In this document: piece by piece, positions 1 to 14,480 of the stretch
Layout of the letters: each line of letters opens with the position of its first letter
Numbering within the stretch: the first letter of the stretch is position 1
Assembly (NCBI RefSeq): GCF_020103725.1
Contig: NZ_JAHXBG010000032.1
Span: 1 to 64,000 of the forward strand
Length of the DNA stretch: 64,000 nucleotides
Direction of reading: 5' to 3'
From: Hyalangium gracile
GTDB taxonomy: Bacteria; Myxococcota; Myxococcia; Myxococcales; Myxococcaceae
Position numbers and translations under genes: made by a program
The notes under the pieces: model-generated
Seen by the model: only the letters and a program-made list of their open reading frames with translations
What the model was told of the DNA's origin: nothing
The model's database searches: none

Positions 1-72
1 AACCTCGTAGGCCCCGAGGCTCGACGGTTCGACAACACGGCGCTCCTTCGCTTTCTGCGCCTACCGAAATAG
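1..72 (+). CDS. C-terminal tail of an upstream gene (partial)
   Basis: Frame 1 is open from the first base to a TAG at 70-72 and encodes 23 residues (ending LLRFLRLPK). The start lies outside the window, so no function can be given. The next small gene begins just downstream in the same direction, consistent with a co-directional satellite operon. The reading is short and could be chance. Confidence 0.3.
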   Translation, partial: NLVGPEARRFDNTALLRFLRLPK

Positions 73-93
73 GTTCTTAGGTCCAGGCTCGCG

Positions 94-270
94 GTGCTGG
101 TCGAACAGGTCGGAGAGCCCGAAGCCCGGCGCATCGTAGGGCTGAGTCGCGGAGCCTTCGCCCGCTCGCTCGCTGGGCTCGGCGTCTACCCTGGCACCGT
201 CGCGCTTGTCAGGGTCGCTCTAGACGCGTGGTGCGCCCCGATTCCTGATTCTACTCGGGGGCCGCTGTGA
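94..270 (+). CDS. small HTH-like protein of a phage satellite
   Basis: A 58-residue frame opens at GTG 94 (CTG 88 is an alternative) and stops with TGA 268-270. The segment GLSRGAFARSLAGL resembles a helix-turn-helix, and the rest is a short helical tail. The stop overlaps the GTG start of the next gene (GTGA at 267-270), which suggests translational coupling and argues that both frames are real. I infer a DNA-binding or regulatory role from size and context only; it is too short to assign a family with confidence. Confidence 0.45.
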   Translation: MLVEQVGEPEARRIVGLSRGAFARSLAGLGVYPGTVALVRVALDAWCAPIPDSTRGPL

Positions 271-599
271 AGCGCGCTCTTGAGGCAGCGGTCGCGATGC
301 GCGCGGCGGTCGCGCTCCTTACCATCGACGAGGTCTCTCAGACGCTGCGCTGCTCCCGCCGCCGCGTATTCGAGTTGCTCGCTACTGGTACGCTCGTCCG
401 TGGCCCCAAGTATGGTCGGCAAACGGTGGTCCTCGCCGAGTCCGTGTTCGCTGCACTTGAAGCGGAGTACCACCCGCCGCCCCCCACTTCAGAGCCCCGC
501 CGCGTCCGCTCGCCCAGGTCGTTCAAGGCGGAGCTCGACGAACTGGCCGAGCGGCAGCGCACTGAGTGGAAAAAGCGGCCCTCTAGATCAGTCGCCTGA
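267..599 (+). CDS. excisionase/AlpA-like HTH DNA-binding protein
   Basis: This 110-residue protein carries a MerR/excisionase-type winged helix: TIDEVSQTLRCSRRRVFELL at about residues 19-38, then a short wing (GPKYGRQ) and a terminal helix. Proteins of this size next to a satellite primase usually act as excisionase and/or activator of the replication genes (AlpA of P4, its counterparts in PICIs). The GTG start at 267 is chosen because it overlaps the upstream stop; ATG 297 is the alternative. The basic, Pro-rich C terminus (about 70-110) is probably flexible. The replication gene follows 27 bp downstream. The excisionase role is inferred. Confidence 0.65.
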   Translation: MKRALEAAVAMRAAVALLTIDEVSQTLRCSRRRVFELLATGTLVRGPKYGRQTVVLAESVFAALEAEYHPPPPTSEPRRVRSPRSFKAELDELAERQRTEWKKRPSRSVA

Positions 600-626
600 T
601 CCGATTCCCGATTCCCGGTCGAGCGA

Positions 627-3206
627 ATGCACGCGCATTACACGAACCTTGAGACCCCCGCTCCAACTGGGCCGCTCGCGACGATGGGACCCACCCTAGC
701 TCGGCACGGCTGGGCAGTTGTCCCCCTGCATTCCATCTGTCCGGATGGCTCCTGTACGTGCGAGCCGCGCCGCGATGGGAAGGAGTGCAGGGCGCGCGGC
801 AAACACCCCTGGGTGTCGGACTGGCCGGACATGGCCACCACCGATCCCGAGCAGATCGCAGCGTGGGCAGCACGTTACCCGGGCGCCAACCTGGGGATCG
901 CTACGGGGACCTTCTCAGGGATCATCGCGTTAGACGTGGACCCCAAGAACGGGGGGCCCGATTCCCTGGCCGAGCTGATCGCCAAGCATGGTCCGATGCC
1001 CGCGACCACGCGCCAGATCACGGGCAGCGGTGGGGAGCATTGGTACTTCAAGGCTCCACCGGGCATGTCCGTAACGAACTCCGCCGGGAAGCTCGGTCGC
1101 GGTCTCGACGTGAGAGGGGACGGCGGGCTTGTAGTGGTTGCCCCGTCCCGCTCGGACAAGGGCCCATACAACTGGGCGCCCGGCTGCGCTCCCTGGGAGA
1201 CGCCCCCGGTGGAGTGCCCTCCGTGGCTTGTCGCTCGGCTCGGTCGTGCGCCAGCCCCCAAGGGCCCGGTCCCTGACGGCGCTCGCGGATACTTCCCGCC
1301 CGCGTCTGCTGAGGTCCTGGCGGCTGCCCGTGACGCCTTGGCGCAGCACGGGCCAGCCATAGACGGGGACGGTGGCGGACTGCATACCGTCCACGCCGCA
1401 GCGATCCTCACGCACGACTTCGCGTTGACCGATGGGGAGGCACTGGGGCTGCTCCTGGAATGGAATGAGACCTGCCAGCCTCCCTGGGAGATCGAGGGGC
1501 CTGACGGGCTCAAGGTGCGCCTGGAGCGCGGCCGGAAGTACGGTAAGCGTCCATACGGTTGCCGTCGCACGCTGGACACCGTGGCAGCCGCCCGGAAGAT
1601 GATCGCTGACTGGCAGGCGTCCGGCTCCGACGATCCCTCCCCGATGGTCGCGGTCGTGCGTCAACTCCAGTGGGATGACCCGGCAAAGCGGGCACTGATT
1701 CTGAAGGATCTACACCGCGCAACGGGGATCCCTCAGCGGGATCTCAACCTGCCCCCAGCCGTCGACCTCCAGGCGCTCGCGGAACGGGAGGCGAGACAGC
1801 GCGCGTTTGATGCAGGCGCAGCGAGTGACCTGCTGGACACCTCGGAGCCCCTCGACGTCGCCCGGCGCTTCCTGGCCCACCGCGCGAACGCTGAGAAGCT
1901 CCCAGAGATCGTGCGGTGGAATGGTGACTTCCTGATCGCCCGCAGCACTCACTACGAGGTGATCAGCGACGAGACGATCAACGCAGCGCTCTACGGGTTC
2001 GCGGACACGAAGCGCGACGTCAAGACCGGCGCTCCGGTGAAGCCTGATCGGGCGTTCGTCGAGGAACTCCGCCACGCTCTACAGGCAGCGGCGAGCATTG
2101 ATCAGGCTGTGCTGTCCGCGCCCGCGTGGCTCAGCCCCATGCCGGGAGACCCCGGGCCGCAGGACGTGATCGCCTTCCCCAACGGTCTGCTGACGCTGAC
2201 GCACCCGCGCCAGTTCCTCGAGCCGTCCCGGCGATTCTTCAACGTCAACGCGGTGGGGTTCCCCTACGATCCCGATGCTCCGCCCCCAGCGCACTGGACC
2301 CGCTTCCTCGCTGACGTCTGGCCCGTTGACGCGGAGTCAATCGAGACGCTCCAGGAGTTCATGGGCCTTGCTCTGACTCCGGACACGTCCCATCAAAAAA
2401 TCATGCTCCTGATCGGCCCCCCGCGCTCGGGCAAGGGCACGATCAATCGTGTCCTACAGAAGCTCGTAGGGGAGGGGAACTATTGCTCTCCGACCCTCAG
2501 CGGGCTGGGTGCGCAGTTCGGATCCGAGCCGTTGATCGGGAAGCGCCTGGCTGTGATCACGGATGCCCGGTTGGGCACCCGCGTTGACCCTAGCGCGGTG
2601 GCTGAACGGCTCCTATCGATCAGCGGCGAGGATGCCCAGACTATCGATCGCAAGCACCGATCCTCATGGACCGCCAAGCTCAGCGTGCGCTTTCTGATCA
2701 TGACAAACGAACTTCCGGCCCTGTTGGATTCCTCGGGGGCGTTCGCAAGCCGGTTCCGGGTACTGCAAATGACCCGCTCTTTCTTCGGACGTGAGGATCG
2801 CGGGCTCGCTGAACGTCTCCTGAGGGAACTGCCCGGGATCCTGAACTGGAGCCTGGAAGGTCTGGACCGGCTCCGCTCGCGTGGCTACCTCCGCCAGCCC
2901 ATGAGCGCTGAGGAGACTGTCGCTCAGCTGGAAATGCTCGGCTCCCCGATCAAGGCGTTCGTCTCCGAGCGCTGCGATCTCTTGCCTGGGGCGGCTACGG
3001 AATGCGCGTCACTCTATGCGGCGTGGGTCCGCTGGACGGAAGCACAGGGCAGGGAGAAACCCGGGACACAGCCGATCTTCACCCGGAACCTGACCAGCGC
3101 CTTCCCAGAGGTGACGGTCACCCGCCCCCGGATCCAAGGGCAGCAAGTGAAGCACTACAGCGGGCTGCGGCTCCGCGTCGAGGACCTCCGCTTGTCGGCT
3201 CCCTGA
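627..3206 (+). CDS. prim-pol / superfamily 3 helicase replication protein
   Basis: An 859-residue fused replication initiator. The N-terminal third is a bifunctional primase-polymerase domain: metal-binding DVD at 103-105 inside ALDVDPKNGG, then SGGEHWYF at 134-141. The C-terminal third is a D5/P4-type SF3 helicase with Walker A GPPRSGKGT at 597-605, an acidic Walker B region near VITDAR, and a sensor stretch MTNELPAL. This layout matches the replication proteins of P4-like satellites, PICIs and some plasmids, which unwind and prime at a dedicated origin. ATG 627 has a weak ribosome site; ATG 684 is an alternative start. A noncoding segment with repeats follows directly and is the natural candidate for its target. 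Confidence 0.9.
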   Translation: MHAHYTNLETPAPTGPLATMGPTLARHGWAVVPLHSICPDGSCTCEPRRDGKECRARGKHPWVSDWPDMATTDPEQIAAWAARYPGANLGIATGTFSGIIALDVDPKNGGPDSLAELIAKHGPMPATTRQITGSGGEHWYFKAPPGMSVTNSAGKLGRGLDVRGDGGLVVVAPSRSDKGPYNWAPGCAPWETPPVECPPWLVARLGRAPAPKGPVPDGARGYFPPASAEVLAAARDALAQHGPAIDGDGGGLHTVHAAAILTHDFALTDGEALGLLLEWNETCQPPWEIEGPDGLKVRLERGRKYGKRPYGCRRTLDTVAAARKMIADWQASGSDDPSPMVAVVRQLQWDDPAKRALILKDLHRATGIPQRDLNLPPAVDLQALAEREARQRAFDAGAASDLLDTSEPLDVARRFLAHRANAEKLPEIVRWNGDFLIARSTHYEVISDETINAALYGFADTKRDVKTGAPVKPDRAFVEELRHALQAAASIDQAVLSAPAWLSPMPGDPGPQDVIAFPNGLLTLTHPRQFLEPSRRFFNVNAVGFPYDPDAPPPAHWTRFLADVWPVDAESIETLQEFMGLALTPDTSHQKIMLLIGPPRSGKGTINRVLQKLVGEGNYCSPTLSGLGAQFGSEPLIGKRLAVITDARLGTRVDPSAVAERLLSISGEDAQTIDRKHRSSWTAKLSVRFLIMTNELPALLDSSGAFASRFRVLQMTRSFFGREDRGLAERLLRELPGILNWSLEGLDRLRSRGYLRQPMSAEETVAQLEMLGSPIKAFVSERCDLLPGAATECASLYAAWVRWTEAQGREKPGTQPIFTRNLTSAFPEVTVTRPRIQGQQVKHYSGLRLRVEDLRLSAP

Positions 3207-3358
3207 GTACGCTGAGTTCGCGTGAGTATCCATCTCAACAATTGCAACCGTATCCGGATCCCTCAAGAGGAAAGGACCCCTCAGAGGGAAAGCACACCCC
3301 CGATCCCTATAGGAACGCAATGGCTGAGCACCGTACTCAGGCGCGCTCAGATACTCAG
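3204..3358. repeat. inverted iteron-like clusters, candidate satellite origin
   Basis: Two clusters of three TGAGTA/CTGAG-like motifs face each other. The first is at 3204-3229 (TGAGTA, CTGAG, TGAGTA); the second at 3333-3358 reads the same on the minus strand. Between them, at 3257-3274 and 3275-3292, lie two directly adjacent 18-bp repeats identical at 14 of 18 positions, each able to form a short hairpin (CCCTC-A-GAGGG in the second). Everything except the first few bases is noncoding. Position right after a prim-pol/SF3 helicase gene fits a replication origin; this role is inference. Confidence 0.5.
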
Positions 3359-3495
3359 GGGAGGGAACTCTACACCCCCCCATAGGCTTGGGTCCTTCCG
3401 GCGTCCCACCCCCTGCGGGAGCGTAGATCCGCAGGACTGCGGTAGTGAAAACGGCGTCTATGTGTTGTCAGGACACTAAGCAGCGAGGGAGTCAC

Positions 3496-4059
3496 ATGGG
3501 GCTGTCGCGGCGCAAATACGCCGAGCATCGGAAGGACAGGGGCCTCTCCGGGGGCTCCCTTCAGGCTGTGCAGCGTGCACTGGAGAAGGGCCGCATTCAC
3601 CTCGAGCCCGACGGCACGATCGATCCCGCCCGAGCTGACCGCGACTGGGCGGCCAATACGGACTTGAGCAAGGCGCCCGCGTCCGTGGTCGCGGCTGGCT
3701 CAGCAGGTGACACGCTCCCCGACAACCGACAACCGGCGTTGTCAGGCGCCGTTCCCTCCCTCTCTGGCGAGGTTCCCGAGCCGCATGAGGGGCTGTCCTT
3801 GTCGGAGGCCAATGCGATCAAAGCGGTCTGGCAGGCGAAGACGGCGAAGCTCGAATACCTGAAGGCGGCCGGCGAAGTCGTGCCGGCGGCCGGCGTCCGC
3901 GCCGAGCTAGAGTCCGTGTTCCGTGCCTGCCGCACGAAGCTCTTAGGTGTCCCGTCGCGAGCCAAGCAGGCGATGCCAGAGCTGACGACGGCGCAGATCG
4001 CGAAGTTCGAGGACCTGATCCGCGAGTCGCTCGAGGACCTAGCCGCCGGTCAGGTCTGA
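3496..4059 (+). CDS. terminase small subunit-like protein (Nu1/TerS type)
   Basis: A 187-residue protein with a short N-terminal HTH-like region ending in the phrase DGTIDPARADRDWAANTD (about residues 43-60), typical of phage Nu1/TerS packaging proteins. A variable linker and a helical C-terminal half (LSEANAIKAVWQAKTAKLEYL onward) follow, as in those proteins. TerS binds pac/cos DNA and directs it to the large terminase. In satellites a lone TerS redirects a helper phage's packaging motor. No large terminase is present in the window. ATG 3496 is preferred over an in-frame start at 3445 because GAGGGA lies 6 bp upstream of it. Family assignment is from pattern only. Confidence 0.65.
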   Translation: MGLSRRKYAEHRKDRGLSGGSLQAVQRALEKGRIHLEPDGTIDPARADRDWAANTDLSKAPASVVAAGSAGDTLPDNRQPALSGAVPSLSGEVPEPHEGLSLSEANAIKAVWQAKTAKLEYLKAAGEVVPAAGVRAELESVFRACRTKLLGVPSRAKQAMPELTTAQIAKFEDLIRESLEDLAAGQV

Positions 4060-4433
4060 ACCGGAGTGATTTTTGCGTGTTCTGCCCCCCGCGAATCGTA
4101 ACAGTTCGCTGTACCCCGTGGGGGACAGGGATGGACTGAGCTGCTCGCTAGGAGCGAGCAAGCGTCAGTCGAAGCTCTGCAAATGTTCGCCCTGCTCCCC
4201 GGTGAGCCAAAGGCGGCGCGCAGCTCGGCCCGGTGGCGCCCGCGCGTCAGACAGCTGGCGCCCTGCTCGGGCTGCCCGGCCCGACGGGCGGGGTCCAAGG
4301 CGGACGCCCACCCGTGTGCTCGTCCCGCGCTGGTGCCGGGGATGATGGCGCAGAGTCGGTACGTGCTGTTGCGTGACGGGTTGGAGGCGTAGGAAGGCTG
4401 TAGCTGCAAGAGTCTTCTGGCAGACTTGGACAT
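4060..4433. repeat. noncoding spacer with degenerate repeats (segment A)
   Basis: 374 bp between the terminase-like gene and the DUF4145 gene with no convincing ORF. AAATGTTCGCCCTGC at 4181-4195 also occurs exactly in segment C near 8844. CCCGGTGGCGCCCGCGCGTC near 4229 resembles the repeat unit CCGGTGGAGC...CGCG found in segments B, C and D. It looks like a truncated member of the same repeat family. A promoter for the downstream gene presumably sits near 4390-4430 but I see no convincing motif. Confidence 0.45.
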
Positions 4434-5210
4434 ATGACCTTCGACCGCACAAGATGGACTGTGCCCTTCACCAAGGACAGGGTGCCCTCGTGGCCTTGTC
4501 CCCGGTGCGAGGAGGGCACCCTAGTACCTGTGAAAGAGTCGTTCACAGAGAAGCTTACTGCCGAGTCGCGTCAAGCTTATGCGCACCAAGCTTGGGAGCC
4601 GGAGTGGGACAGGGGTCGCTTCGCGGGGCGCTTGGTCTGTACGCGTACGGAATGCACTGAGCCAGTCGTCGTGTGTGGCGACACGCGTGGCGTCGTAGAC
4701 GACGTTGATCCAGAAACGGGGGGGCCAACGTACACGACCGCGTTTCATCCTGTCTTCTTCCACCCAGCCCTGCCGCTCTTTCGTGTACCGCCTAAGTGCA
4801 CAGAGGAAATTCGGGCCGAACTCAAGCGGGCCTGGGCGCTCTATTGGTCCGACTCGGCCTCTTGCGCCAACCGGGTTCGAACCTGTGTGGAACTCGTACT
4901 CACACACCTCAGGATCCCGCGCTCCACAAGGTCCCAAAAGAATCGGAAGATAAGGCTGAAGCTCCACGACCGGATTGAACTCTTCAAGCAACGAAACGCT
5001 GAACTGGCGCAGGCGCTCATGGCCGTAAAGTGGATCGGGAACATCGGGAGCCACGAGGGAGGGGCAGGCGGGGTGGGAAGGGAGGACATCCTGAACGGGC
5101 TTGAACTGCTAGAGCATGTGCTTGTTGAGGTGTTCGAGCAGCGGTCAAAGCGGTTGGCGCGGATGGGGAAGCAGATCGTTAAGAGGAAAGGGCGACCGAA
5201 ACGATCTTAG
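4434..5210 (+). CDS. zinc-ribbon DUF4145 domain protein
   Basis: 258 residues. The N terminus has paired cysteines (C22/C25 in WPCPRCEEG, C69/C74 in CTRTEC) that look like a zinc ribbon. The C-terminal half (about 125-245) is helical and includes KWIGNIGSHEG at 199-209, a hallmark of DUF4145, a HEPN-like family often encoded beside restriction systems and phage-defence genes. An anti-phage or nucleic-acid-sensing role is therefore plausible but inferred. It is a lone gene, flanked on both sides by related noncoding repeats, directly after the satellite genes. Confidence 0.7.
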   Translation: MTFDRTRWTVPFTKDRVPSWPCPRCEEGTLVPVKESFTEKLTAESRQAYAHQAWEPEWDRGRFAGRLVCTRTECTEPVVVCGDTRGVVDDVDPETGGPTYTTAFHPVFFHPALPLFRVPPKCTEEIRAELKRAWALYWSDSASCANRVRTCVELVLTHLRIPRSTRSQKNRKIRLKLHDRIELFKQRNAELAQALMAVKWIGNIGSHEGGAGGVGREDILNGLELLEHVLVEVFEQRSKRLARMGKQIVKRKGRPKRS

Positions 5211-5299
5211 GTGGAAGGGTCAGGCCTGCCACAGGGAGCCCGCCGCACTTTGAGGTCCATGGGTCGCTGCACTTGGCGGGAGTGGCCTGCCGAACCAGA

Positions 5300-5404
5300 G
5301 GATTCGCGCCGACGCCGCGCGCCTCTCGGCGGGTGGATTCGCGCCGATGCCGCGCCAGCGGTTGGGACTGGATTTGCTCCGACGCCGCGCGCGAGCGGGC
5401 GCGC
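5300..5404. repeat. three tandem 35-bp direct repeats
   Basis: Units start at 5300, 5335 and 5370, each opening GGATT(C/T)GC followed by CCGA(C/T)GCCGCGC. The three diverge in their second halves. They sit immediately upstream of the 119-bp conserved block. Confidence 0.7.
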
Positions 5405-5411
5405 GAAAGGG

Positions 5412-5530
5412 GTAAGTGCTCGCCCCGCCCCGGGATGGAGCAGCCAGCCGGGCAGCAGCATTCCACCCGGAGTGGGAACGTGGTGCGGAGACCGCTGACG
5501 CGGTGTCCGTCGGGCGGGTTCCACATGCTC
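5412..5530. repeat. 119-bp dispersed block, copy 1
   Basis: Hand alignment to 8842-8961 gives about 94 of 120 identical positions. The first third can fold as a hairpin CCCCGG...TGG-AGCAG-CCA...CCGGG. Relative to the other copy the outer stem shows a G-C to T-A compensatory pair, while the AGCAR loop is kept. Function unknown. Confidence 0.65.
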
Positions 5531-5649
5531 TGCTGGCCGCTGCTTCTCCCGCGAATCAGCCCCGGCGCCCGGTGCCCCACCGGAACGGCGGAGCACATGG
5601 CAGCGCGGCCCAGTGGCGCGCTCCCGCGTCGGACGGGTGCAGCCGGGCC

Positions 5650-5793
5650 CGTGGAGCGCGAGCGGCGGACGGGGGCAGCCCGGCCCGTGGAGCGCGAGCG
5701 GCGGACGGGGGCAGCCCGGCCCGTGAAGCGCGAGCGGCGGACGGGGGCAGCCCGGCCCGTGAAGCGCGCGATGAAGGCAGGGGCGGCGCCCGA
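5650..5793. repeat. 36-bp tandem repeat array
   Basis: Four head-to-tail units start at 5650, 5686, 5722 and 5758. Units 1 and 2 are identical, unit 3 differs by one base (GTGGAG to GTGAAG) and unit 4 is degenerate. A diverged unit precedes them from about 5610. The core CGTGGAGCGCGAGCGGCGGA resembles the GGTGGAGC...CGCCGGA motif seen singly in segments C and D. With no spacers between units it is not a CRISPR array. Confidence 0.85.
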
Positions 5794-5877
5794 CACCGGA
5801 ACGGCGGCGCGAATGGTCTGAGGCGCCTGACTCCGACGCGAGGGGCCGCTCCCGTCTGCTACTCTGGGGGCCTACCT

Positions 5878-6795
5878 GTGAGGTTCCTCGTCTTGCTCCG
5901 ACCCTGCGTCCCGCCTTTCGCGCTCGCCTCCCTGCTGGTGGGCCTTGCCGCTACGGCACAGGCCGCGCCCGCTGGGCGCTCCGTCATTCTCATGGGCAAG
6001 GCTGGCGAGTCCCCGTTGATCTACCTGGCGCCTGACGCCCCTACGTTCATCCTCTTGGACGCTCCGATCGTGCGTGAGTCCGTCGAGGTGGAGGGCCGCG
6101 CCCGCTTCGCCCGGGTGGATCCAGCAGATCAGGGCATCACGCTGGTTCTTGCCGTGCCGCTCGGGCCCAAGGAACGGCTGGCGCTGCGTTTCACCTACCG
6201 CGAGGGCTCGCCTCAAAGCGTCGTGTTCCTGCTCACCAGTCAGCCCGGCACGGTGGATGCCGTGGTGAACGTGAGCCGCCCTCAGCAGACGGTGGAGGCA
6301 TGCCGCGTGGAACTGTCCGCCACGCGCGAGCGGTGCGAGGCGCAGAGCAAGGAACTGGAGGAGTTGAAAGCGCGGCCCCCAGCCGTGAGCCCGGCAGCCG
6401 TGGCACTCGCGGGGGTCGTGGACTTGAAGGGCATGAGGGGGGAGGACTTCGGGCTGGCGTGCTTCGAGGTTCGCGGCGAGCTTCGCCCCGTACAATGCAG
6501 GGGGCTCGGAGCGTCAACGTGGACCGTGGTTGTGCTCGAGGTGAGCAATACCGGGGCGGCTCCGTGGGTGCCCGCGTGGGCAGAGCTGACGCCCGCAGCG
6601 GGAGGGGAGCCGCGCCGCGCCCGCGCAGTGCTCTCCGGGCAGGCCACTATTCCCCCAGGGGGCTCGGTGAGCGTGGCCGTTGAGGTGGAAATGCCCGCGC
6701 GAGAGCCGGGGGAATGGCTGCGGGCGGTGCACGCGCTGCGGGTGTGCAACGGTGACGGGAGCCGCTGTCTGTCCGTTCCCCAGGTGAAGCTGTAG
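5878..6795 (+). CDS. DUF2381 family exported protein
   Basis: 305 residues starting at GTG 5878, with GGGGG 7 bp upstream; the longer frame upstream only reads tandem repeats. Residues 1-28 form a signal peptide ending near ATAQAAPA. The rest matches the DUF2381 paralogous family of myxobacteria (TIGR02268-type): an N-terminal beta-rich part, a short helical stretch with RERCEAQSKELEEL near 145-160, and a C-terminal beta domain. Family function is unknown. Members commonly sit beside Ser/Thr kinase genes, as here (the kinase starts 22 bp downstream), so the pair is probably an operon in which this protein acts outside the inner membrane with the kinase's external domain. That partnership is inference. 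Confidence 0.8.
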   Translation: MRFLVLLRPCVPPFALASLLVGLAATAQAAPAGRSVILMGKAGESPLIYLAPDAPTFILLDAPIVRESVEVEGRARFARVDPADQGITLVLAVPLGPKERLALRFTYREGSPQSVVFLLTSQPGTVDAVVNVSRPQQTVEACRVELSATRERCEAQSKELEELKARPPAVSPAAVALAGVVDLKGMRGEDFGLACFEVRGELRPVQCRGLGASTWTVVVLEVSNTGAAPWVPAWAELTPAAGGEPRRARAVLSGQATIPPGGSVSVAVEVEMPAREPGEWLRAVHALRVCNGDGSRCLSVPQVKL

Positions 6796-6817
6796 CAACA
6801 GGCGAGAGGTGCTCGGC

Positions 6818-8659
6818 ATGGTGGCTCAAGTGGATCCAAGGGACCTCAGACCCGGCCAGATGGTGGACGGCTGGCGCATCGTCCGGAAGATCGGGGCGGG
6901 CACCTACGGCGTTGTCTACGAGGTGGAGAAGGACGGCCAGCGCTTCGCGCTCAAGGTGGCCTGCCACCGGGAGCAGAGCGGTGATCCACGGCAGACGGAT
7001 GCACGCGCGCGGCGCGAGGCGGTCTGCCTCGGGAAGCTCGACCACCGCCACATCATCCGCATGTGGGCTCAGGGGCGTTGTGGGGATCCGCGCTCGGGCT
7101 TCCTCTACGTCGTCCTGGACTTGGTGGACGGCTACACGCTGGGGGAGTGGGTGCGGCGGACGTACCCGACGGTGCATGAAGTGGTCGTCCTGTTCCGCAA
7201 GCTGTTTGACGCGCTGGAGCACATGCACGCGCGGGGCGTGTTCCATCGGGACTTGAGCCTGCGAAACATCATGGTCACCAAAGAAGGCGAGCCGGTGATC
7301 ATCGACTTTGGAGCGGCGGACTACGCGGCAGCCGAGGAATTGACGGATGCACCGTTGCCCCCATGCACGCCGCGCAACCGCAGCCCTGAGGCTCAGCGCT
7401 TCTGGAATGAAAACCGGCTCAACCCGGAGGCCCGTTACCCCTTCAAGGCGACCGATGACATTTTTGCGCTCGGAGCCGACCTCTACGACGTGCTGACGGA
7501 CCCCACGCCCCAGAGCAGCAAGGTGCGACCCCCGCTCGGTGACGCGGTGCCGCCTCCTTCCCCGTTCAAGGTAACCCAGGGGCGCGTTCCAGAAGTGCTG
7601 AGCAGCTATGCGCTGATGCTGATCCACGACAAGCCAGAGGGGCGGCCCGCGACGGCGAAGGATGCGCGGAGCCCTCTGGAGGAGTTCGCGCAATTTGAAG
7701 GCCCGGAGTGGCGCAGCACCCGCGTTCACCCGGTAGCCGCGCAGCTACCGCCAGCACCCGCCGAAATTGCACCCGGGCAGGTCGAGGTCCCGCCAGTGCC
7801 CATCCCCTCCCATCCGTCCGCGGTGCCGGGCGCGGGGGCTGGTGCGCTGAACCGTCTGCGCCGTGGGTGGCTCCGTCCGGCATTCGTCGCGCCGCTGGTG
7901 CTTGTAGTGCTCGCGGCAGCCGTCGCCGCCTTCGTGCTGCAAAGGCCCGCGCACCCGGCGCCGCCTCCCGTGGCCAGGAGCGCACGAGCGGATCAGCCCC
8001 CAACGCCCAGCCCGCTGGCCGAAAAGCCGACAAGCCGTCCCGCTCAGTTAGCCTCGCCTCTCCCTACCCAAGAGAAGGCGAGTCCTTCCGTGAAACAACC
8101 CGACAACTCCCCAACGCTCACCAGCGGGGTACCGAACCCGCAGAAGGCCAGCCCCCGGCGCGTGCTCTCGAAGGCTGAGAGGTGCGCGCTACTCGTGGCC
8201 TCCGTCGCGTGGATTAAAGCGGGCTGCTCCGGTGTGCAGACGCGCCCCGATCCCGAGGATTGCCCCGAGGAAGCCGTTAGGGCGATGAAGGAGATGGGGT
8301 GGAGCACACAAGGGGGAACACAGCCCTTCATCCTCGTTGACGTGACCAAGGGGAGCGTTGAAGAGGCGCGCGAGCAAAACAGGACCGTGTGGAAGGACGG
8401 GCCCGTTACGGGGGCGCTGATCAGGGCAGAAGGAAAGGCGCCTGCGGGGACGCGACTGGATGGGCACCTGTGGACGACGGGAGATCGCATCTATGGCCGC
8501 TACCTCCGCGCCCACCTTTCAGGCGGGCGCACCGTGCCGATCTGCGTCGAACTGACAGACGGGGGCGATCTGGGCATGGACAAGCGCGAGGGCTCGAAGC
8601 CCGGCGCCCCTGTGGGGTCCAAGGTATCCAGTTCGCATGCGGTTGAGCGGTGGAGGTGA
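6818..8659 (+). CDS. receptor-type serine/threonine protein kinase
   Basis: 613 residues. The Hanks-type kinase domain (about 18-290) looks catalytically complete: glycine loop IGAGTYG, ATP-binding K46 (FALKVA), HRD at 143-145 with N150, DFG at 163-165. A Pro/Ala-rich juxtamembrane segment leads to one membrane helix (about 350-375), and a C-terminal domain of about 235 residues should be periplasmic. The start is ATG 6818 (GAGAGG 8 bp upstream) rather than GTG 6809. It follows the DUF2381 gene closely. The pair, enclosed by repeat segments B and C, looks like one cargo module. Substrate unknown. Confidence 0.85.
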   Translation: MVAQVDPRDLRPGQMVDGWRIVRKIGAGTYGVVYEVEKDGQRFALKVACHREQSGDPRQTDARARREAVCLGKLDHRHIIRMWAQGRCGDPRSGFLYVVLDLVDGYTLGEWVRRTYPTVHEVVVLFRKLFDALEHMHARGVFHRDLSLRNIMVTKEGEPVIIDFGAADYAAAEELTDAPLPPCTPRNRSPEAQRFWNENRLNPEARYPFKATDDIFALGADLYDVLTDPTPQSSKVRPPLGDAVPPPSPFKVTQGRVPEVLSSYALMLIHDKPEGRPATAKDARSPLEEFAQFEGPEWRSTRVHPVAAQLPPAPAEIAPGQVEVPPVPIPSHPSAVPGAGAGALNRLRRGWLRPAFVAPLVLVVLAAAVAAFVLQRPAHPAPPPVARSARADQPPTPSPLAEKPTSRPAQLASPLPTQEKASPSVKQPDNSPTLTSGVPNPQKASPRRVLSKAERCALLVASVAWIKAGCSGVQTRPDPEDCPEEAVRAMKEMGWSTQGGTQPFILVDVTKGSVEEAREQNRTVWKDGPVTGALIRAEGKAPAGTRLDGHLWTTGDRIYGRYLRAHLSGGRTVPICVELTDGGDLGMDKREGSKPGAPVGSKVSSSHAVERWR

Positions 8660-8985
8660 GCTGGGCCTGGGGGCGCATCCCGCGTCCAGGCGGGCCTGCT
8701 AGGGCGCCGCGTGTCGGACAAGTGACGCTGGGCCTGGTAGAGCGCGCGAGCGTCGAGGCTCGCCTGCTGGGCCGGTGGAGCCCCGCGCACGCCGGACGGT
8801 CAATGTGCATGCGCCGGAGAGGTGAAGCTGAGCCCGGTGGAGTAAATGTTCGCCCTGCCCCGTGGTGGAGCAACCAGACGGGCAACTGCGTTCCAAGAGG
8901 AGTGGGGAACGACGCGCGGAGAACTCTAACGCGGTGTCCGTATGACGTGCTCCACAAGCTCGGCAGGTCGCTCTCTTTTCTCGTC
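8660..8985. repeat. noncoding repeat-rich spacer (segment C)
   Basis: 326 bp between converging genes (kinase on plus, HEPN-like gene on minus). It contains degenerate copies of the dispersed unit, including CCGGTGGAGCCCCGCGC at 8772-8788 (exact match at 10239-10255) and GAAGCTGAGCCCGGTGGAG from 8824 (one mismatch to 10267-10285), then the 120-bp block at 8842-8961. No gene is supported. Confidence 0.65.
8842..8961. repeat. 120-bp dispersed block, copy 2
   Basis: Second copy of the block at 5412-5530. The hairpin reads CCCCGT...TGG-AGCAA-CCA...ACGGG; the T-A pair replaces the G-C pair of copy 1. A second short inverted repeat (GTTCC...GGAAC) follows. Its first 15 or so bases also occur at 4181. 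Confidence 0.65.
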
Positions 8986-10200
8986 TCAGACGGGGCTCGG
9001 CGATCCGTTACCTTTTTCGCCAGCCTTGTCGTCGGTGGACACATGCGATGCCTCTTGCCTCGCCTGCGTGATCATGTTGTCACGCCACCGGAGCAGCGCG
9101 CCACGAGCGATGTACGCGAACGTGTGAAGCAAGAGCGGCGTGTCCTTGCGCATCCAGACTGCATCCTGGGACGCGGTCGCCAACCCGAGCGGGACCTCAA
9201 TAGGCGACTTGGAGGCCGAACGAGGTGGCTGGCACATTGGGACGGGGAACGGCTTGCCGCCGTGGAGTGCGTGCGACCGAAGCTCATAAACACGTTCAAT
9301 CGTCTTGCGCATCTTGGCCTCGTCCCAATCCAGGCGCGCCCAGTCCTCTGTCGGACGCTCGGCAGGTGGCGGAGGAAGGTGTTCGATCACGAAGTCCCGG
9401 AATCGTCGCGTTGCGCCCAAGAGTGGAACGAGTTGGGTCGCCATGCTCTCGAGCAATGACGCGCCACCGGCCTCCAGTTGTGTCGCCCAGTCTGGTTTCA
9501 CCGTGCGGAGCACATCGACCGGCGAACCATCTGCGGAGCGCCAATGGGTCGCGGCGGTCTCAAGCGCCGACACAAGCAGCAACCACGCGAGGTTCGGCTC
9601 AGCATCCGCGATCCACACGGCGTTCTGGTACGCCCGTGCAGCTCGTGCGAGCGCTACCGCACCCTCTGGGGGAAGTAGGTCGTACCCAGCGAGCGTCGAC
9701 GGCGTCAAGGACCGCTGCCCTCTGAGTGACGGCACGATCGGCGCAGTTGTTCGTGGTGGCAGTTGGGGCGTGGGGCGGCGCTCGTCCCAGCCGACAGGTC
9801 GCCCGCGAGGGTCCTTGCCTGATTCGAACATTCGCGAGCAGGGCCCGGCCTGGAAGCGTGCGCCGAGAGCGAGCGAAAGAAGCGCCGCGAGTTCATCGGG
9901 AAGCGTGCCACCAAAGTAGCGGCTGTCATCGGTCGCCCTCATCGGAGTCCACCGACCAGTAGCGACGTGCTGTTCGTATCGGAGGATCACCCGAGGTCGA
10001 GCCTGCTCGTCCTCCGGAAGAGCAATTGTATTGAGCAGGGTATACGGCCCACACCCACTCGTGACCTCGTCGACGATCCACGCATCCGTGTACAGCGCCA
10101 CCTCGTATGCCACGAGCGCTGGCGCGCCGCTATTCGCCGTCCGCCAATTCTCATGGCCTGCCGGTCCAACCTGCGGCACCAAGTCACGTTTTTTCGCCAT
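8986..10200 (-). CDS. Apea/HEPN-like domain protein, possible defence gene
   Basis: 404 residues from ATG 10200 (an in-frame GTG at 10224 would add 8). The C-terminal part (about 190-385) is helical and holds ELRSHALHGG, whose R308-X4-H313 spacing matches the HEPN ribonuclease signature and resembles Apea-type HEPN proteins. The N-terminal 180 residues are not recognised. HEPN proteins often cleave RNA in abortive-infection or toxin systems; this function is inferred and the catalytic pair is unverified. It is a single minus-strand gene enclosed by repeat segments C and D, with no obvious antitoxin next to it. Confidence 0.6.
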   Translation of the reverse strand: MAKKRDLVPQVGPAGHENWRTANSGAPALVAYEVALYTDAWIVDEVTSGCGPYTLLNTIALPEDEQARPRVILRYEQHVATGRWTPMRATDDSRYFGGTLPDELAALLSLALGARFQAGPCSRMFESGKDPRGRPVGWDERRPTPQLPPRTTAPIVPSLRGQRSLTPSTLAGYDLLPPEGAVALARAARAYQNAVWIADAEPNLAWLLLVSALETAATHWRSADGSPVDVLRTVKPDWATQLEAGGASLLESMATQLVPLLGATRRFRDFVIEHLPPPPAERPTEDWARLDWDEAKMRKTIERVYELRSHALHGGKPFPVPMCQPPRSASKSPIEVPLGLATASQDAVWMRKDTPLLLHTFAYIARGALLRWRDNMITQARQEASHVSTDDKAGEKGNGSPSPV

Positions 10201-10448
10201 TGAGCGAACGTAGGCTGATGCCACCGCCTTTGGAATATCCGGTGGAGCCCCGCGCGCCGGATCGGCGAAGCTGTGCCCGGTGGAGCCCTCCCGCGTCGAG
10301 GGGGCCTGCTGGGGCGTTCTGCTGACGCTGTAGCTCAGGCTCGCGCCGCTCCCAACCCCCGGCGTCGTTCAACCTCCCAGCACATGCCGGGTAGTGTTTC
10401 GCTCCGTTGCGCGGCGCCCTCTTGCGCGCTGCGAGGAGTCGATCCCGC
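10201..10448. repeat. noncoding spacer with dispersed repeats (segment D)
   Basis: 248 bp between divergent genes. CCGGTGGAGCCCCGCGC at 10239-10255 and GAAGCTGTGCCCGGTGGAG at 10267-10285 are near copies of motifs in segment C, in the same orientation. CGCGTCGAGGGGGCCTGCTGGGGCG near 10292 resembles another unit near 8690. Promoters for both neighbours should lie here, but none is evident. Confidence 0.55.
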
Positions 10449-11648
10449 ATGGCCACTGCAAGGCTCCCCTGGAGCGTCCCGGGCGTGATTCTCTTCTCCC
10501 AGGGCGATCTCGCGTATGAGGTCGATCTGTCGCGGGGGGTGGTCGAGGACTTGGCACACTCGAAGTTGGGGGAGCGGACCTTCCTTGCGTGGGAGCGCAC
10601 GACCGCGCAGCGAATCCGCCCGGTCATCGTCCGCAGCTTGCCCCCTACGTCATCAGGAGATCTGGAAGCGCTCGACAGGGTGCGCGCACGGCTCCGCGAG
10701 GAAGCACGTCTGGCCACTTACCTGCAACACCCGAGGATCGCCCGAATCTTCGGGATCCATGAGGTCCAGGGCGTTCTCTACGTGGTGTCCGAAGTTGTAG
10801 AGGGCACTTCGATCAACACCCTGATCAGCTATTCGATCATGCGCGAAGCACCCTTTTCCCCCGCGTTCTGCATGTACGTGGGCGCCGAGGTGGCCAGCAC
10901 CCTGCATTACGCGCACACCTGCAAGGACGAGAGCGGCGCTCCGCTGGGTATCGTTCATCGAGACGTGAACCCCGCTCGCCTCTACCTGGGGCCAGAGGGT
11001 GAAGTCGTGCTGACGGACTTCGCCCGTGCGCGTTCCCTGCTCCCGGGCCGGGTGGAAACGACGCTCCCGCGCCCTCAAGGTGACGTCGCCTACTGCTCAC
11101 CAGAGGCGCTTCTCGGCGAAGAGACGGATCCACGCTCGGATCTGTTCGCGCTCGGGCTGGTGCTGCTGGAACTGGCCACCTTGCGCCACCTCTACAGCAC
11201 GGGCAATGCACGATCCGAAGACTTGGAGGCGGCCCTAACACCAGCGGTCAAGGATCAGGTTCTCGACGCCGCAATTACGGCAGCGGAGGCAGACCTTCCG
11301 GCCCATGCGGAGGACTGCATCCTGCGGGCTGCCACGTTCGCCCCGCAGGACGTGGAGGAACTCACCGAGCCGCTTCAGCCCCCGCTGCGCTCCATCATCC
11401 GCAGGTTGCTCCAGCGGAAGCCGGAGGACCGTTATCCATCGGCGGCTGCCCTGGAGTCGGATCTGCGGGCGGGCCTCGCGTCGCTCGCGACCGCCTACGG
11501 AGCCGCTGAGGCGCTGGAGGAGGGCCGCAACTCACGGGACGGGGCCAGCATGAATCGGCGCGTCGCCGGGCCTACGAACGGGAACGGGTTACCCCCAGTC
11601 ATAGAGGCGGAAGAAGACATCATCACCGCGCCGGGCGGGGGCAACTAG
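10449..11648 (+). CDS. serine/threonine kinase-like protein, probable pseudokinase
   Basis: 399 residues from ATG 10449 with GAGGAG upstream. The protein kinase fold is recognisable (about 35-375), but key residues are changed: the VAIK lysine is R62 (PVIVRSL), the HRD at 170-172 is followed by R177 where the metal-binding Asn belongs (HRDVNPAR), and DFG is DFA at 190-192. The SPE motif and RKPEDRYPSA near the end are kept. No membrane helix is visible. It is thus probably catalytically dead or very weak and may act as a scaffold or sensor. An XRE regulator gene follows by 83 bp; the two may form a regulatory unit. Confidence 0.75.
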   Translation: MATARLPWSVPGVILFSQGDLAYEVDLSRGVVEDLAHSKLGERTFLAWERTTAQRIRPVIVRSLPPTSSGDLEALDRVRARLREEARLATYLQHPRIARIFGIHEVQGVLYVVSEVVEGTSINTLISYSIMREAPFSPAFCMYVGAEVASTLHYAHTCKDESGAPLGIVHRDVNPARLYLGPEGEVVLTDFARARSLLPGRVETTLPRPQGDVAYCSPEALLGEETDPRSDLFALGLVLLELATLRHLYSTGNARSEDLEAALTPAVKDQVLDAAITAAEADLPAHAEDCILRAATFAPQDVEELTEPLQPPLRSIIRRLLQRKPEDRYPSAAALESDLRAGLASLATAYGAAEALEEGRNSRDGASMNRRVAGPTNGNGLPPVIEAEEDIITAPGGGN

Positions 11649-11731
11649 CCGCCCTCTCTGACCGTGACCGTCTGTCGCTGGCTCCGTCGGGGCCTCAACT
11701 CGTCCGACCGGGCAACGCCCGCAGGTTCCGC

Positions 11732-12202
11732 ATGGAGAAAACCCCCGCGAACACTCCCGCCGCTGGACGCTCCAGGCCCTCCACGACGCGCCGCAAGCGG
11801 TCCTCTCTTCCTCGCCACATCGAGATCCGACAGGACAGGCTACCGGCCACCCTTGGAGCGGCGTTGAAACAGGCACGCCAGCGCGCGGGCATGACTCAGG
11901 CAGAAGTTGCCGAAGGTATCGGCAGCGCCGTCGAGGTGTACGGGCGCATGGAGCGGGGGGGAGCGCTCCCGAGCGTTTCCACGCTGCTGCGCCTGTGCCT
12001 GATTCTCGGAAGCGGGCCCCATGAGCTGATGGGGTTCTCTCCGGTGGCTTCGTGGCAGGAGGCATCCGGGGCAGGCACGGTGCCGCCCGGCCTGAACGAC
12101 ACGCCCGAGAAACGGCGGCTGCTGCGCCGCCTCGCTCGCCTCGACAGTCCGAGGATCAAGGTCCTGTCGCGCCTGGCCGCCTTGCTTCTCCCGGGCCACT
12201 GA
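11732..12202 (+). CDS. XRE family HTH transcriptional regulator
   Basis: 156 residues. A basic N-terminal tail precedes a Cro/C1-type HTH (about 45-105: LGAALKQARQRAGMTQAEVAEGIGSAVEVYGRMERG), then a C-terminal part with a Leu/Arg-rich helix. It is the last gene before the tRNA pair. Palindromes TTGGCGCCAA at 12260-12269 and a 13-bp inverted repeat at 12285-12322 lie downstream and could be operators or boundary sites. It may control the island; this is inferred from family and location. Confidence 0.8.
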   Translation: MEKTPANTPAAGRSRPSTTRRKRSSLPRHIEIRQDRLPATLGAALKQARQRAGMTQAEVAEGIGSAVEVYGRMERGGALPSVSTLLRLCLILGSGPHELMGFSPVASWQEASGAGTVPPGLNDTPEKRRLLRRLARLDSPRIKVLSRLAALLLPGH

Positions 12203-12259
12203 AGCGCAACGGGAGCGGGCCGCAGGGGCGCGCGAGAAGGGGAAGGGGAGGGGGTCGGT

Positions 12260-12349
12260 TTGGCGCCAACTTGGCGCCGTCGCGGTGCGCACAGCCGCAC
12301 ATCCCTGCACGGCTGTGCGCACCTAAGTTCTCGAAACTACTGAGAACTT
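12260..12349. repeat. inverted repeats at the island/tRNA junction
   Basis: Three palindromic elements lie between the XRE gene and tRNA-Glu: TTGGCGCCAA (12260-12269); a 13-bp perfect inverted repeat GTGCGCACAGCCG (12285-12297 with 12310-12322, 12-nt loop); and AAGTTCTC/GAGAACTT (12325-12332 with 12342-12349), which ends 4 bp before the tRNA 3' end. They could be tRNA terminators, repressor operators or recombinase sites. None has the T-run of a classical terminator in either direction. Confidence 0.6.
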
Positions 12350-12353
12350 CTAT

Positions 12354-12425
12354 GTCCCCGACGGGATTCGAACCCGTGTTACCGGCTTGAAAGGCCAGCG
12401 TCCTGGGCCTCTAGACGACGGGGAC
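12354..12425 (-). tRNA. tRNA-Glu (anticodon UUC)
   Basis: The minus strand folds as a standard cloverleaf: acceptor GTCCCCG pairing with CGGGGAC, anticodon loop CTTTCAA with TTC, and T-loop GGTTCGAATCC. It is 72 nt long with no encoded CCA. The 3' end faces the accessory region on the left, the usual arrangement for an integration target. Confidence 0.95.
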
Positions 12426-12430
12426 GACTG

Positions 12431-12503
<73 letters not shown>

Positions 12504-12684
12504 GCACTATTCTTTTTTGCACCGGGTCATGGTGAACAACCGCTGGGCTCTCTACCAGCAGTCCCTGTCGACTTCCACTGGCGCGCACTTCCGGGACATC
12601 CTGACAGCCCCGACACGACCGCCGGTGAACGTCTCCAGGGCCTCCTCCCCCCACCAGGGCCCCCGGGGCGCTATACAAGGGGGC

Positions 12685-13221
12685 ATGCGTCAAGACGTAC
12701 CCCCAGAGCATGACGACCAGGACGAGGAGGCCGAGCAGGAAGGTGGCGCCCACCGCCGCTACCTCACCCGCGCCGGCGCCGAGCGCATGCACCGCGAGCT
12801 GCTCCGCCTGCTCAACGAGGAGCGCCCCAAGGTGACGGCCGAGGTCTCCGCCGCCGCCGCCCAGGGCGATCGCTCCGAGAATGCCGAGTACATCTACGGC
12901 AAGAAGCGCCTGCGCGAGATCGACCGCCGCATCCGTTTCCTCCAGAAGCGCCTGGACACCGCCACCATCGTCACCCCCTCCGAGCAGGCCGACCAGGGCC
13001 GCGTCTACTTCGGCGCCACCGTCACCCTCGAGGACGAGGACGGCGCGAAGACCACCTACCAGATCGTCGGCTCGGACGAGATCGACACCCAGGGCGGGCG
13101 CATCAGCGTGGAGTCCCCCATCGGCAAGGCCCTGCTGCGCAAGGCCGTGGGTGACACGGTCGAGGTCATGCGGCCTCGCGGGGAGATCGAGCTCACCATC
13201 GTCTCCATCAAGTACGTGTAG
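12685..13221 (+). CDS. greB: transcription elongation factor GreB
   Basis: 178 residues. An acidic N-terminal extension of about 22 residues precedes the Gre coiled coil (about 25-100), whose tip carries GDRSEN at 61-66 and then YGKKRLREIDRR, diagnostic of GreB rather than GreA. The C-terminal FKBP-like domain (about 105-178) includes SPIGKALLRKAVGD. GreB enters the secondary channel of RNA polymerase and stimulates cleavage of backtracked transcripts. ATG 12685 has GGGGG only 1 bp upstream, and a TATACA lies 7 bp before the ATG, so a leaderless transcript is possible. An uncharacterised gene follows by 12 bp. Confidence 0.93.
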   Translation: MRQDVPPEHDDQDEEAEQEGGAHRRYLTRAGAERMHRELLRLLNEERPKVTAEVSAAAAQGDRSENAEYIYGKKRLREIDRRIRFLQKRLDTATIVTPSEQADQGRVYFGATVTLEDEDGAKTTYQIVGSDEIDTQGGRISVESPIGKALLRKAVGDTVEVMRPRGEIELTIVSIKYV

Positions 13222-13233
13222 GAGGGCCCCCAG

Positions 13234-14175
13234 ATGCCACGGACGCAGCCGTCGCTCTCGCGCCTCCGTCGCATCTACCAGCGTCTGAGCCAGGCGGAGC
13301 TGTCCGCGGCCGAACAGGACGAGGCGCTCAGCCTCGACGATCTGGGGCTGGAGACTCGCGGAGAGCGTGAGGCGCTGGCCCTGGGCGTCTACAGCCGCCG
13401 GGGCCTGGAGAACGTCATGCGCGAGTATGGGCTGCTCCAGCGCCTGGAGGAGCGGGGCGTGGGCCCGCTCGAGATCCAGCTGACGTTCGAGGACACGTTC
13501 CGGCCGCGCATCGTCCTCTGGAGCCAGCGCTACCAGGCGGCGGTGGTGGACATCGCCCTGCGCAAGGTGTCGGGCGCCGACGTGGGGGTGCCGCCGCCGC
13601 AGGAAGCTCGCGCGCTGCTCTTCGTGGAGTCCCTGGTCCTCCAGCATCCGGGCCGGTCCTTCGACTGGAAGCGCCCGCCGATGCCCGGCCAGGTCCACCC
13701 GGGGCTGGCGCTCTCGGCGGAGGTCCTCGAGCTGATGCTGCTCATGGCCCGCCGCGTGGGCGCGGAGGGCCTGGCGCTCACGCCCTCCACGTTCGCCGCC
13801 GCGTGGGTCTACGCCAGCAGCCTCCGCTTCATCGACGGCGCCGCCCAGGGGCGCTTCGTGGCGCTCCGAAGGGCAGGGCGCGAGTGGCCCCGCTGGCTGC
13901 TGGCGTGGGCCGTGGAGCTGGACTGCATCCGTGGCCCCGCCGGCGCACCGGTGCGCTTCAGCCCCTCGCCCATGCTCACGTCCTTCTCCCGGCGCTTCGA
14001 GCGCCTCTTCGAGGACAAGGGGTGGCGCAGCGCGGCGAAGGCGCAGGCCGAAGTGCCCCTGACGCTGGACCTTCAGGCGCTGCAGGACCGCTTCCCGTGG
14101 GAGCGCATGCCTCGGGGATCCCCCCCAGAGCCCATCGCGGAGGTGCTCGCCTATGATCCGCTCGTGCCTGCCTGA
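13234..14175 (+). CDS. conserved hypothetical protein
   Basis: 313 residues, soluble, rich in Arg, Leu and Glu. I recognise no domain. The N terminus (about 1-75) is helical and charged, the middle contains a beta-like stretch (PLEIQLTFEDTFRPRIVLW), and the C-terminal half is mostly helical with LLAWAVELDCIRGP. A clear ribosome site (GGAGGG) precedes ATG 13234, and the gene is 12 bp behind greB, so the two are probably co-transcribed. No signal peptide or membrane helix is seen. Confidence 0.7.
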   Translation: MPRTQPSLSRLRRIYQRLSQAELSAAEQDEALSLDDLGLETRGEREALALGVYSRRGLENVMREYGLLQRLEERGVGPLEIQLTFEDTFRPRIVLWSQRYQAAVVDIALRKVSGADVGVPPPQEARALLFVESLVLQHPGRSFDWKRPPMPGQVHPGLALSAEVLELMLLMARRVGAEGLALTPSTFAAAWVYASSLRFIDGAAQGRFVALRRAGREWPRWLLAWAVELDCIRGPAGAPVRFSPSPMLTSFSRRFERLFEDKGWRSAAKAQAEVPLTLDLQALQDRFPWERMPRGSPPEPIAEVLAYDPLVPA

Positions 14176-14480
14176 GCGGCCGGGCCGGGCGTCCCGGCGA
14201 TCCAGGGCAGCCCAGGGTCCTCCCCAGAGGGGGGCAGGGACTTGTGCCCGCCGTCCGAGGGTTCACCAATCGACACCCTCGTCCTCAGGGGTAGCTGGAG
14301 ACCCTGGCAGCCCGGCCCTGCGACCAGACGGGTAGGGGAATTTCTCCTCGAAAGAGGTGTACCCCCGTAGCAAAGCGGCTGTTTCCCTGGGAGGCGGTGT
14401 CTATATTGGCTACTGGAAGGTCTCTCCTACCAGCAGCGTCCACGCGGTCGCACCCGTCTTCCGAGGTCGCCACCACCACG
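14176..14480. other. intergenic region upstream of the PIN-PhoH gene
   Basis: 305 bp with no supported gene. CGAGGGT (14256-14262) and ACCCTCG (14275-14281) form a 7-bp inverted repeat that may end the greB transcript. TATATT at 14402-14407, 74 bp before the PhoH start, is a possible -10 element but lacks a clear -35. Confidence 0.4.

Follow-up and report, generated by a model that had tools for sequence, protein, structure and literature searches.

Most work on phage satellites concerns Firmicutes and gamma-proteobacteria. Phage-inducible chromosomal islands (PICIs) combine an integrase (int), an excisionase-like regulator, a primase-helicase, a terminase small subunit (TerS) and cargo in ~15 kb at a tRNA gene, and P4-type satellites are recognised by an AlpA-like regulator, a primase-helicase and a tRNA site. 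According to the account in PMC10690885, some SaPIs use TerS, and cf-PICIs, which encode capsid, portal, connectors and a large terminase (TerL), are said to occur widely across Bacteria; they are also reported to use diverse phage tails (PMC13345588). The description of PICMIs in PMC10803314 has int overlapped over 4 nt by iolg, an alpA gene (with PF12728 allowed) and a primase with DUF5906; excision requires alpA and the int-overlapping gene, and the elements are presented with fis and with no terS homologue. A review (PMC11389934) names P4-like elements, PICI, cfPICI, PLE, PICMI, VEIMEs and Tycheposons, together with a proposal from soil bacteria. In the literature on phage satellites in myxobacteria (titles and abstracts, mostly of open-access papers), we found no account of a family of the kind considered here.

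The window is the whole stretch of DNA that was analysed, 64,000 nucleotides long, and corresponds to bases 1-64000 of a 121-kb contig (C32) in a genome of 11.7 Mb in 81 contigs. The sequence-only reading of its first lines had called the host myxobacterium-like, and the genome indeed shares class and family with Archangium lansinium (G071), a myxobacterium. Judged from sequence, window 1-12399 and C28:146039-148171, on a second contig, probably belong to a single phage satellite, about 15.3 kb long and integrated in a tRNA-Glu gene. The features of the window part are as follows (C, contigs; L, loci; G, genomes).

1..76, + strand: right end of an IS5-family insertion sequence (IS); window base 1 is the contig end, inside the IS
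82..270, + strand: C-terminal part of a small HTH-like ORF split by the IS; 61% over 61 aa (E 1e-22) to an 83-aa ORF before the HTH gene in L086; HTH character by eye
267..599, + strand: HTH_17, excisionase/AlpA-like protein, 110 aa; Pfam 24.5 bits, PHROG excisionase E 8e-4
627..3206, + strand: primase-polymerase (prim-pol) with SF3-type helicase (DUF5906), replication protein; PF09250 2.2e-43, PF19263 6.5e-14, phrog_1156 DNA primase 1.2e-78
3204..3357, no strand: iteron-like cluster, candidate replication origin; 5 TGAGT(A/T)(C/T) copies, imperfect 18-nt tandem pair at 3256-3291
3496..4059, + strand: TerS, 187 aa; open frame from GTG 3445, phrog_57 6.7e-22 on frame 3445-4056
4434..5210, + strand: DUF4145 protein, cargo; PF13643 6.2e-14, phrog_1305 6.3e-23
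5881..6795, + strand: DUF2381 protein, cargo; PF09544 1.1e-41 on the 5416-6792 frame, 85% aa identity to the C1 sibling
6809..8659, + strand: Ser/Thr kinase 1, cargo; PF00069 7.3e-27, 89% aa identity to the C1 sibling
8986..10224, - strand: 412-aa protein, cargo; no Pfam, PADLOC or PHROG match
10407..11648, + strand: Ser/Thr kinase 2, cargo; PF00069 2e-23, 93% aa identity to the C1 sibling
11732..12202, + strand: XRE-type regulator near attR, cargo; PF01381 9.9e-13, 74% and 90% to two C1 copies
12353..12399, - strand: attR, made up of the 3'-terminal 47 bp of the tRNA-Glu gene (12353-12425); attL at C28:146039-146085 has the identical sequence

With PICIs the island has in common int, a primase-helicase, TerS, cargo, the lack of any structural gene found and a size of ~15 kb at a tRNA gene. 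Its integrase lies next to attL, with a 47-bp direct repeat in two genome copies; the prim-pol/SF3 protein provides a primase-helicase of its own; and terS occurs without terL, portal or capsid in a PHROG scan of the island, GpA-type TerL and lambda-type portal scoring 0 in the genome. A candidate counterpart of the PICI excisionase-like regulator is the HTH_17 protein, at 24.5 bits against a cut-off of 27 and with a PHROG excisionase E-value of 8e-4. The island differs from PICIs in that no stl, rpp or capsid-size gene appeared in the scans, the host is a myxobacterium and a gene overlaps int; the likeness is one of gene content and rests on descriptions, not on sequence comparison. As in PICMIs, int, a gene overlapping int by 4 nt and a DUF5906 primase are present, with HTH_17 under the cut-off, whereas TerS is an addition and no Fis match was found in the nine island proteins scanned with Pfam, the C28 proteins lying outside that scan. 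The likeness to cf-PICIs resides in sibling elements that encode their own capsid/maturation protease protein, but neither GpA TerL nor lambda-type portal is present here, and of the cf-PICI set the window element has TerS alone, with no capsid match. P4-like satellites share a putative AlpA-like regulator, the primase-helicase and the tRNA site, yet TerS is present here and PHROG scans gave no sid, psu or delta hit. Overall, the island fits the full definition of no satellite family, its front being like that of PICMIs and its TerS like that of PICIs; the closest elements in logic are PICIs with terS, and the closest front (int-overlap gene-HTH-primase) is that of PICMIs.

The ends of the island were located from the att repeats. 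The sequence-only reading had described a satellite core at positions 1-4059; the element does not end at 4059 but runs on to attR at 12353-12399, and a right boundary close to TerS was rejected because the sole att partner lies at 12353. With up to 3 mismatches, the 47-mer has exactly two copies genome-wide (C28:146039-146085 and C32:12353-12399) and a reversed control none. To the left, the contig stops at a fixed distance within a repeat, as short-read assemblies give, and the left part of the island was therefore expected on a different contig. Both the integrase and the second att site, which the sequence-only reading had looked for in this direction, are on C28: near the contig end a 426-aa tyrosine integrase (PHROG 1, 9.7e-20) adjoins attL, a 191-aa open frame shares 4 nt (GTGA) with the integrase stop, and the IS comes next. 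A prophage directly leftward was considered and rejected, since the contig opens inside the IS and C28 has the integrase, att and then genes that are bacterial by eye; no structural phage genes, which would have spoken for a prophage, were thus seen before attL and the integrase. In six of six same-genus genomes the match to window 12300-13500 starts at the tRNA 3' end (window 12352-12353). Relatives that lack the island, as the satellite reading implied, were found in three of the nine fetched (L047, L048 and L054), where the C28 flank joins tRNA-Glu at 88-95% identity over ~100 bp; in the remaining six of nine, the C28 flank was not found beside tRNA-Glu.

A 968-bp copy of the IS lies on C8 (L007 6582-7549), with a transposase that has PF13340 and PF01609 matches. 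Window 3-85 shares 98% identity with this copy, the C28 terminus consists of 76 bp of the IS left end (89% to the C8 copy), and TTA stands beside the IS on both C28 and C32; C46 carries the same IS right end as C32, but with a TAA flank. We infer the C28-IS-C32 junction, which is not assembled, from the att pair, from TTA beside both IS ends and from the presence on C32 of the C-terminal part of the split ORF; for the C28 part of this ORF the similarity is weak (E 0.02, other frame), and the island length of 15,348 bp assumes an IS of the same length as the C8 copy. The first HTH gene of the earlier reading is probably window 82-270, the C-terminal part of this small ORF, which is cut by the IS. 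The IS separates the integrase unit from the unit of HTH, primase and TerS, and this copy of the island may be impaired.

Two further observations concern the neighbourhood of the insertion site. On the bacterial side of attL, a 676-aa gene (L024 13893-15923) matches the PADLOC candidate PDC-S41 at 7e-28. In one relative (G020; L048 2416-8766), a 6.2-kb segment lies between tRNA-Glu and a degenerate second flank copy; it holds a 1502-aa ORF, ATPase-like by eye, and a 269-aa ORF, and is perhaps another island at the same site.

The excisionase-like HTH, prim-pol/SF3 helicase and TerS genes had been placed on one strand; all three are on the + strand and the scans agree. The 110-aa HTH protein is 59% identical to the HTH protein of L083 and 67% to that of L086. 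Its similarity to HTH_17 and to PHROG excisionases favours the original call, but the Pfam score falls just below the 27-bit cut-off, and the excisionase label is the weakest of the gene labels on account of that score and the PHROG E-value. The prim-pol and SF3 helicase call is borne out by all three profile matches listed above; the protein is 57% identical to that of L083 over residues 24-850, no match to the DUF3987 part was obtained in it, and no relative was found in viral contigs. As for the iteron segment, five clustered 7-mers and two imperfect 18-mers can be seen, TGAGTWY having 5 copies in 3204-3357 vs 13 across the whole 64 kb on both strands, but the signal is modest and the motif was picked after the sequence had been inspected.

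The identity of TerS is well supported by its genomic context in viral sequences. The proposal that the 187-residue protein is a TerS agrees with the PHROG 57 match and with the GpA-type TerL present in all 63 IMG/VR loci that encode a TerS relative, of which 56 also hold a lambda-type portal; among the matches listed, GpA TerL starts downstream of the TerS start in all 22 IMG/VR loci. In Pfam there is a sub-threshold DUF1441 match alone (0.075). Sixteen GenBank phage records match TerS, the best being AcaML1 (hypothetical protein, 3e-15) and ZRG1 (DUF1441 protein); 12 of the 16 carry a TerS annotation, and these matches are weaker or partial. A single-sequence fold is of low confidence (mean pLDDT 59.6), with residues 1-50 at 82-89. 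Comparison of the window protein with its C1 homologue gives dN 0.26, dS 0.87 and dN/dS ~0.30, which indicates that TerS is under purifying selection.

Cargo occupies window 4434-12353, over half of the island. Both kinases (6809-8659 and 10407-11648) match many PADLOC PD-T4-6 defence models; a defence role on this basis was not accepted, as these models share the kinase domain and the match possibly arises via that domain only. The absence of capsid, tail and large-terminase genes, noted in the sequence-only reading, holds in that no large terminase, portal, capsid or other virion family (Pfam, PHROG) and no conjugation family matched among the scanned island genes. A tblastn search of the window and C1 with four capsid/protease queries (E 0.01) gave no match, and the idea of capsid remnants there was rejected; a single 25-aa capsid-query match in L024 (E 0.006) was taken as chance.

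A sibling island on C1 of the same genome has the order int, a 190-aa gene sharing 4 nt with int, HTH, prim-pol, TerS and then cargo, and is bounded by two 22-bp tmRNA 3'-end repeats 15.5 kb apart. On the right, the att is a piece of a tmRNA 3' end (Rfam 13.6 bits, under the gathering threshold), and ARAGORN calls neither a tRNA nor a tmRNA in L008 and L045. The C1 HTH protein has a sub-threshold PF02954 match, the prim-pol is 46% identical to that of the window over 276 aa with a different helicase half, and TerS is 68% identical in protein and 72% in DNA. The cargo in common comprises DUF2381, both kinases and XRE (74-93% protein and 88-89% DNA identity); nothing on C1 matches DUF4145 or the 412-aa gene. 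The differing integrase and helicase, with cargo closer than TerS, suggest modular exchange. The kinase-2/XRE end of the C1 cargo is partly duplicated (L045 2126-2876 and L008 16655-18325), and a group II intron domain (RF02003, L045 5236-5378) lies ~2 kb past the right att.

A search of 147 genomes of the class found 7 positive with the TerS profile and 11 with a capsid/protease query. Loci were fetched around the TerS and capsid matches, with G091 (TerS fragment only) left out. Elements whose front resembles that of the island are present in other myxobacteria, and six of them have direct-repeat ends 10-12 kb apart. Coordinates below cover a capsid/protease fusion and the tail-fibre-like gene behind it.

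L086, tRNA-Glu, 43-bp repeat, 10.6 kb: shares the site of the window island, with 78% identity between the integrases; 10525-13220
L083, no tRNA, 42-bp repeat, 10.9 kb; 10961-14204
L084, tmRNA type, 21-bp repeat, 10.1 kb; 10990-13759
L085, tRNA-Leu, 39-bp repeat, 10.8 kb; 6499-9389
L069, tRNA-Pro, 48-bp repeat, 12.1 kb; 11256-14083
L087, tRNA-Met, 44-bp repeat, 10.4 kb

Genes of prim-pol type are present in L083-L086, and a shorter, primase-like gene in L069; in all five, the capsid/protease fusion is accompanied by a small protein with a tail-fibre N-terminus, which is 39-42% identical to a 378-aa ORF of the G121 prophage region. L087 encodes a primase and a capsid protein and lacks a fibre match, L067 has the capsid half with a fibre-like gene, and L068 the protease half. 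No exact end repeat was found for L067 or L068; L068 adjoins tmRNA, and its contig stops inside the element. For L174, L175 and L176 the comparison was made by tblastn alone. Behind its capsid gene, L175 has what by eye resembles a tape-measure ORF, and it may be a fragment of a prophage. The integrase stop overlaps the next open frame (140-215 aa) by GTGA or ATGA in seven of nine elements, G131 and G140 being the exceptions and L087 and L174-L176 lying outside the count.

TerS follows prim-pol in the window, C1, G074 and G104, and a shorter primase-like gene in G140. A five-sequence TerS profile, built from the window, C1, L067, L068 and L069, gives strong matches in these five and also in two prophages, L066 and L065, weaker ones in L175 (2e-8) and L087 (4e-5), and none in L083-L086, L174 and L176; L174 and L176 show ~33% similarity to the L087 protein. 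In 11 of 13 genomes, the element-bearing ones (two only 80-85% complete), neither GpA TerL nor lambda-type portal was matched, whereas both match in the other two, G121 and G090, which hold prophages or remnants. For the capsid family in IMG/VR (best 80 of 420 loci), TerL occurs in 68 and the portal in 76; all 30 loci of at least 20 kb have both, and the four without TerL and portal are all pieces of 8-12.5 kb. The viral capsid relatives, within these best 80 of 420, look mostly like ordinary phages, and the prim-pol types of the window and siblings have no match among them. An integrase search of genome contigs gave five loci, one of which is the Archangium lansinium element already found, a sibling that occupies the same tRNA-Glu and in which no such IS was seen. 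In L090, L092 and L093 the prim-pol/TerS/capsid set was not seen; by eye they carry other phage-type genes, with one HTH match each and one helicase match in L092. L091 ends 1.4 kb past the integrase.

The locus is best read as a phage satellite of PICI-like type, with function perhaps impaired by the IS, from a family of which we found no account, and the island is probably able to excise and copy itself. A tailed phage with a GpA-type TerL would infect the cell; the integrase, aided by the HTH and overlap proteins, would excise the island; prim-pol would replicate it from the iteron region; and the island TerS would redirect the helper TerL to island DNA, which would exit in helper particles, with the DUF4145/DUF2381/kinase block as cargo. 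An excision role for the HTH and overlap genes is supported by analogy, since the same-placed PICMI genes are needed for excision in the account of PMC10803314. The helper phage is hypothetical, as the genome itself holds no GpA TerL (a family searched genome-wide).

The phage-satellite interpretation of the sequence-only reading gains support from the att pair, the integrase, the empty site and TerS, as a PICI-like element without a full match to any family. Against it stand the IS that breaks up the region, the six of nine relatives in which no empty site was seen, the DUF4145 and 412-aa genes not common to C1, the unassembled C28-IS-C32 connection with the same IS end on C46, and the weakly excisionase-like 110-aa protein. 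The island could instead be what is left of a prophage after decay and loss of the virion genes, with integrase, replicase and TerS retained. Prophages can shrink, homologues of TerS, capsid and fibre-like proteins sit in the full prophage region of G121, and the capsid half in L067 and protease half in L068 look like decay or assembly loss; yet decay is an unlikely explanation for an identical att pair, intact ORFs and a TerS with signs of purifying selection, for a second island of the same genome with the same front, for six more 10-12 kb elements with matching ends, and for the finding of GpA TerL or lambda-type portal in 0 of 11 element-bearing genomes. We regard as more unlikely still an ordinary, phage-independent integrative genomic island with TerS as a passenger: DUF2381, the kinases and other cargo make up over half of the island and L083-L086 lack a TerS recognised by the five-sequence profile, but the position of TerS after prim-pol recurs in the window, C1, G074 and G104 (in G140 after the shorter primase-like gene), siblings carry capsid and fibre-like genes, and conjugation families matched in no scanned island gene.

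Within the phage-satellite reading, a wider proposal can be put forward tentatively, with slightly more doubt than confidence. The window island might represent, in cargo-rich form, a new family of myxobacterial satellites, of which the other members would encode only a shell (the capsid-protease fusion) and a fibre-like protein, with or without TerS, and would take portal, large terminase and tail from a helper to yield chimeric virions. If true, the satellite would put its own shell and fibre on a stolen portal, motor and tail, and the family would fall between PICI and cf-PICI, going by the cf-PICI definition given in PMC10690885. These putative shell-plus-fibre siblings are the newest part of the findings; they would reveal stepwise gain or loss of virion parts by satellites and allow one to ask whether a satellite alters the host range of the particle it uses. 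Few phages of the predatory, multicellular myxobacteria have been studied, and bounded elements at several integration sites would offer a study system in this group.

A last observation concerns other loci of the source genome. Short matches to the sequence flanking the C8 IS occur in L017-L022 (C31, C23, C6, C53, C12 and C10), and tmRNA 3'-end-like sequence is present in the two inspected, L017 and L018, with an ARAGORN tmRNA in L018 only; on the strength of these tmRNA-like ends, tmRNA may be a recurrent integration site in this genome.
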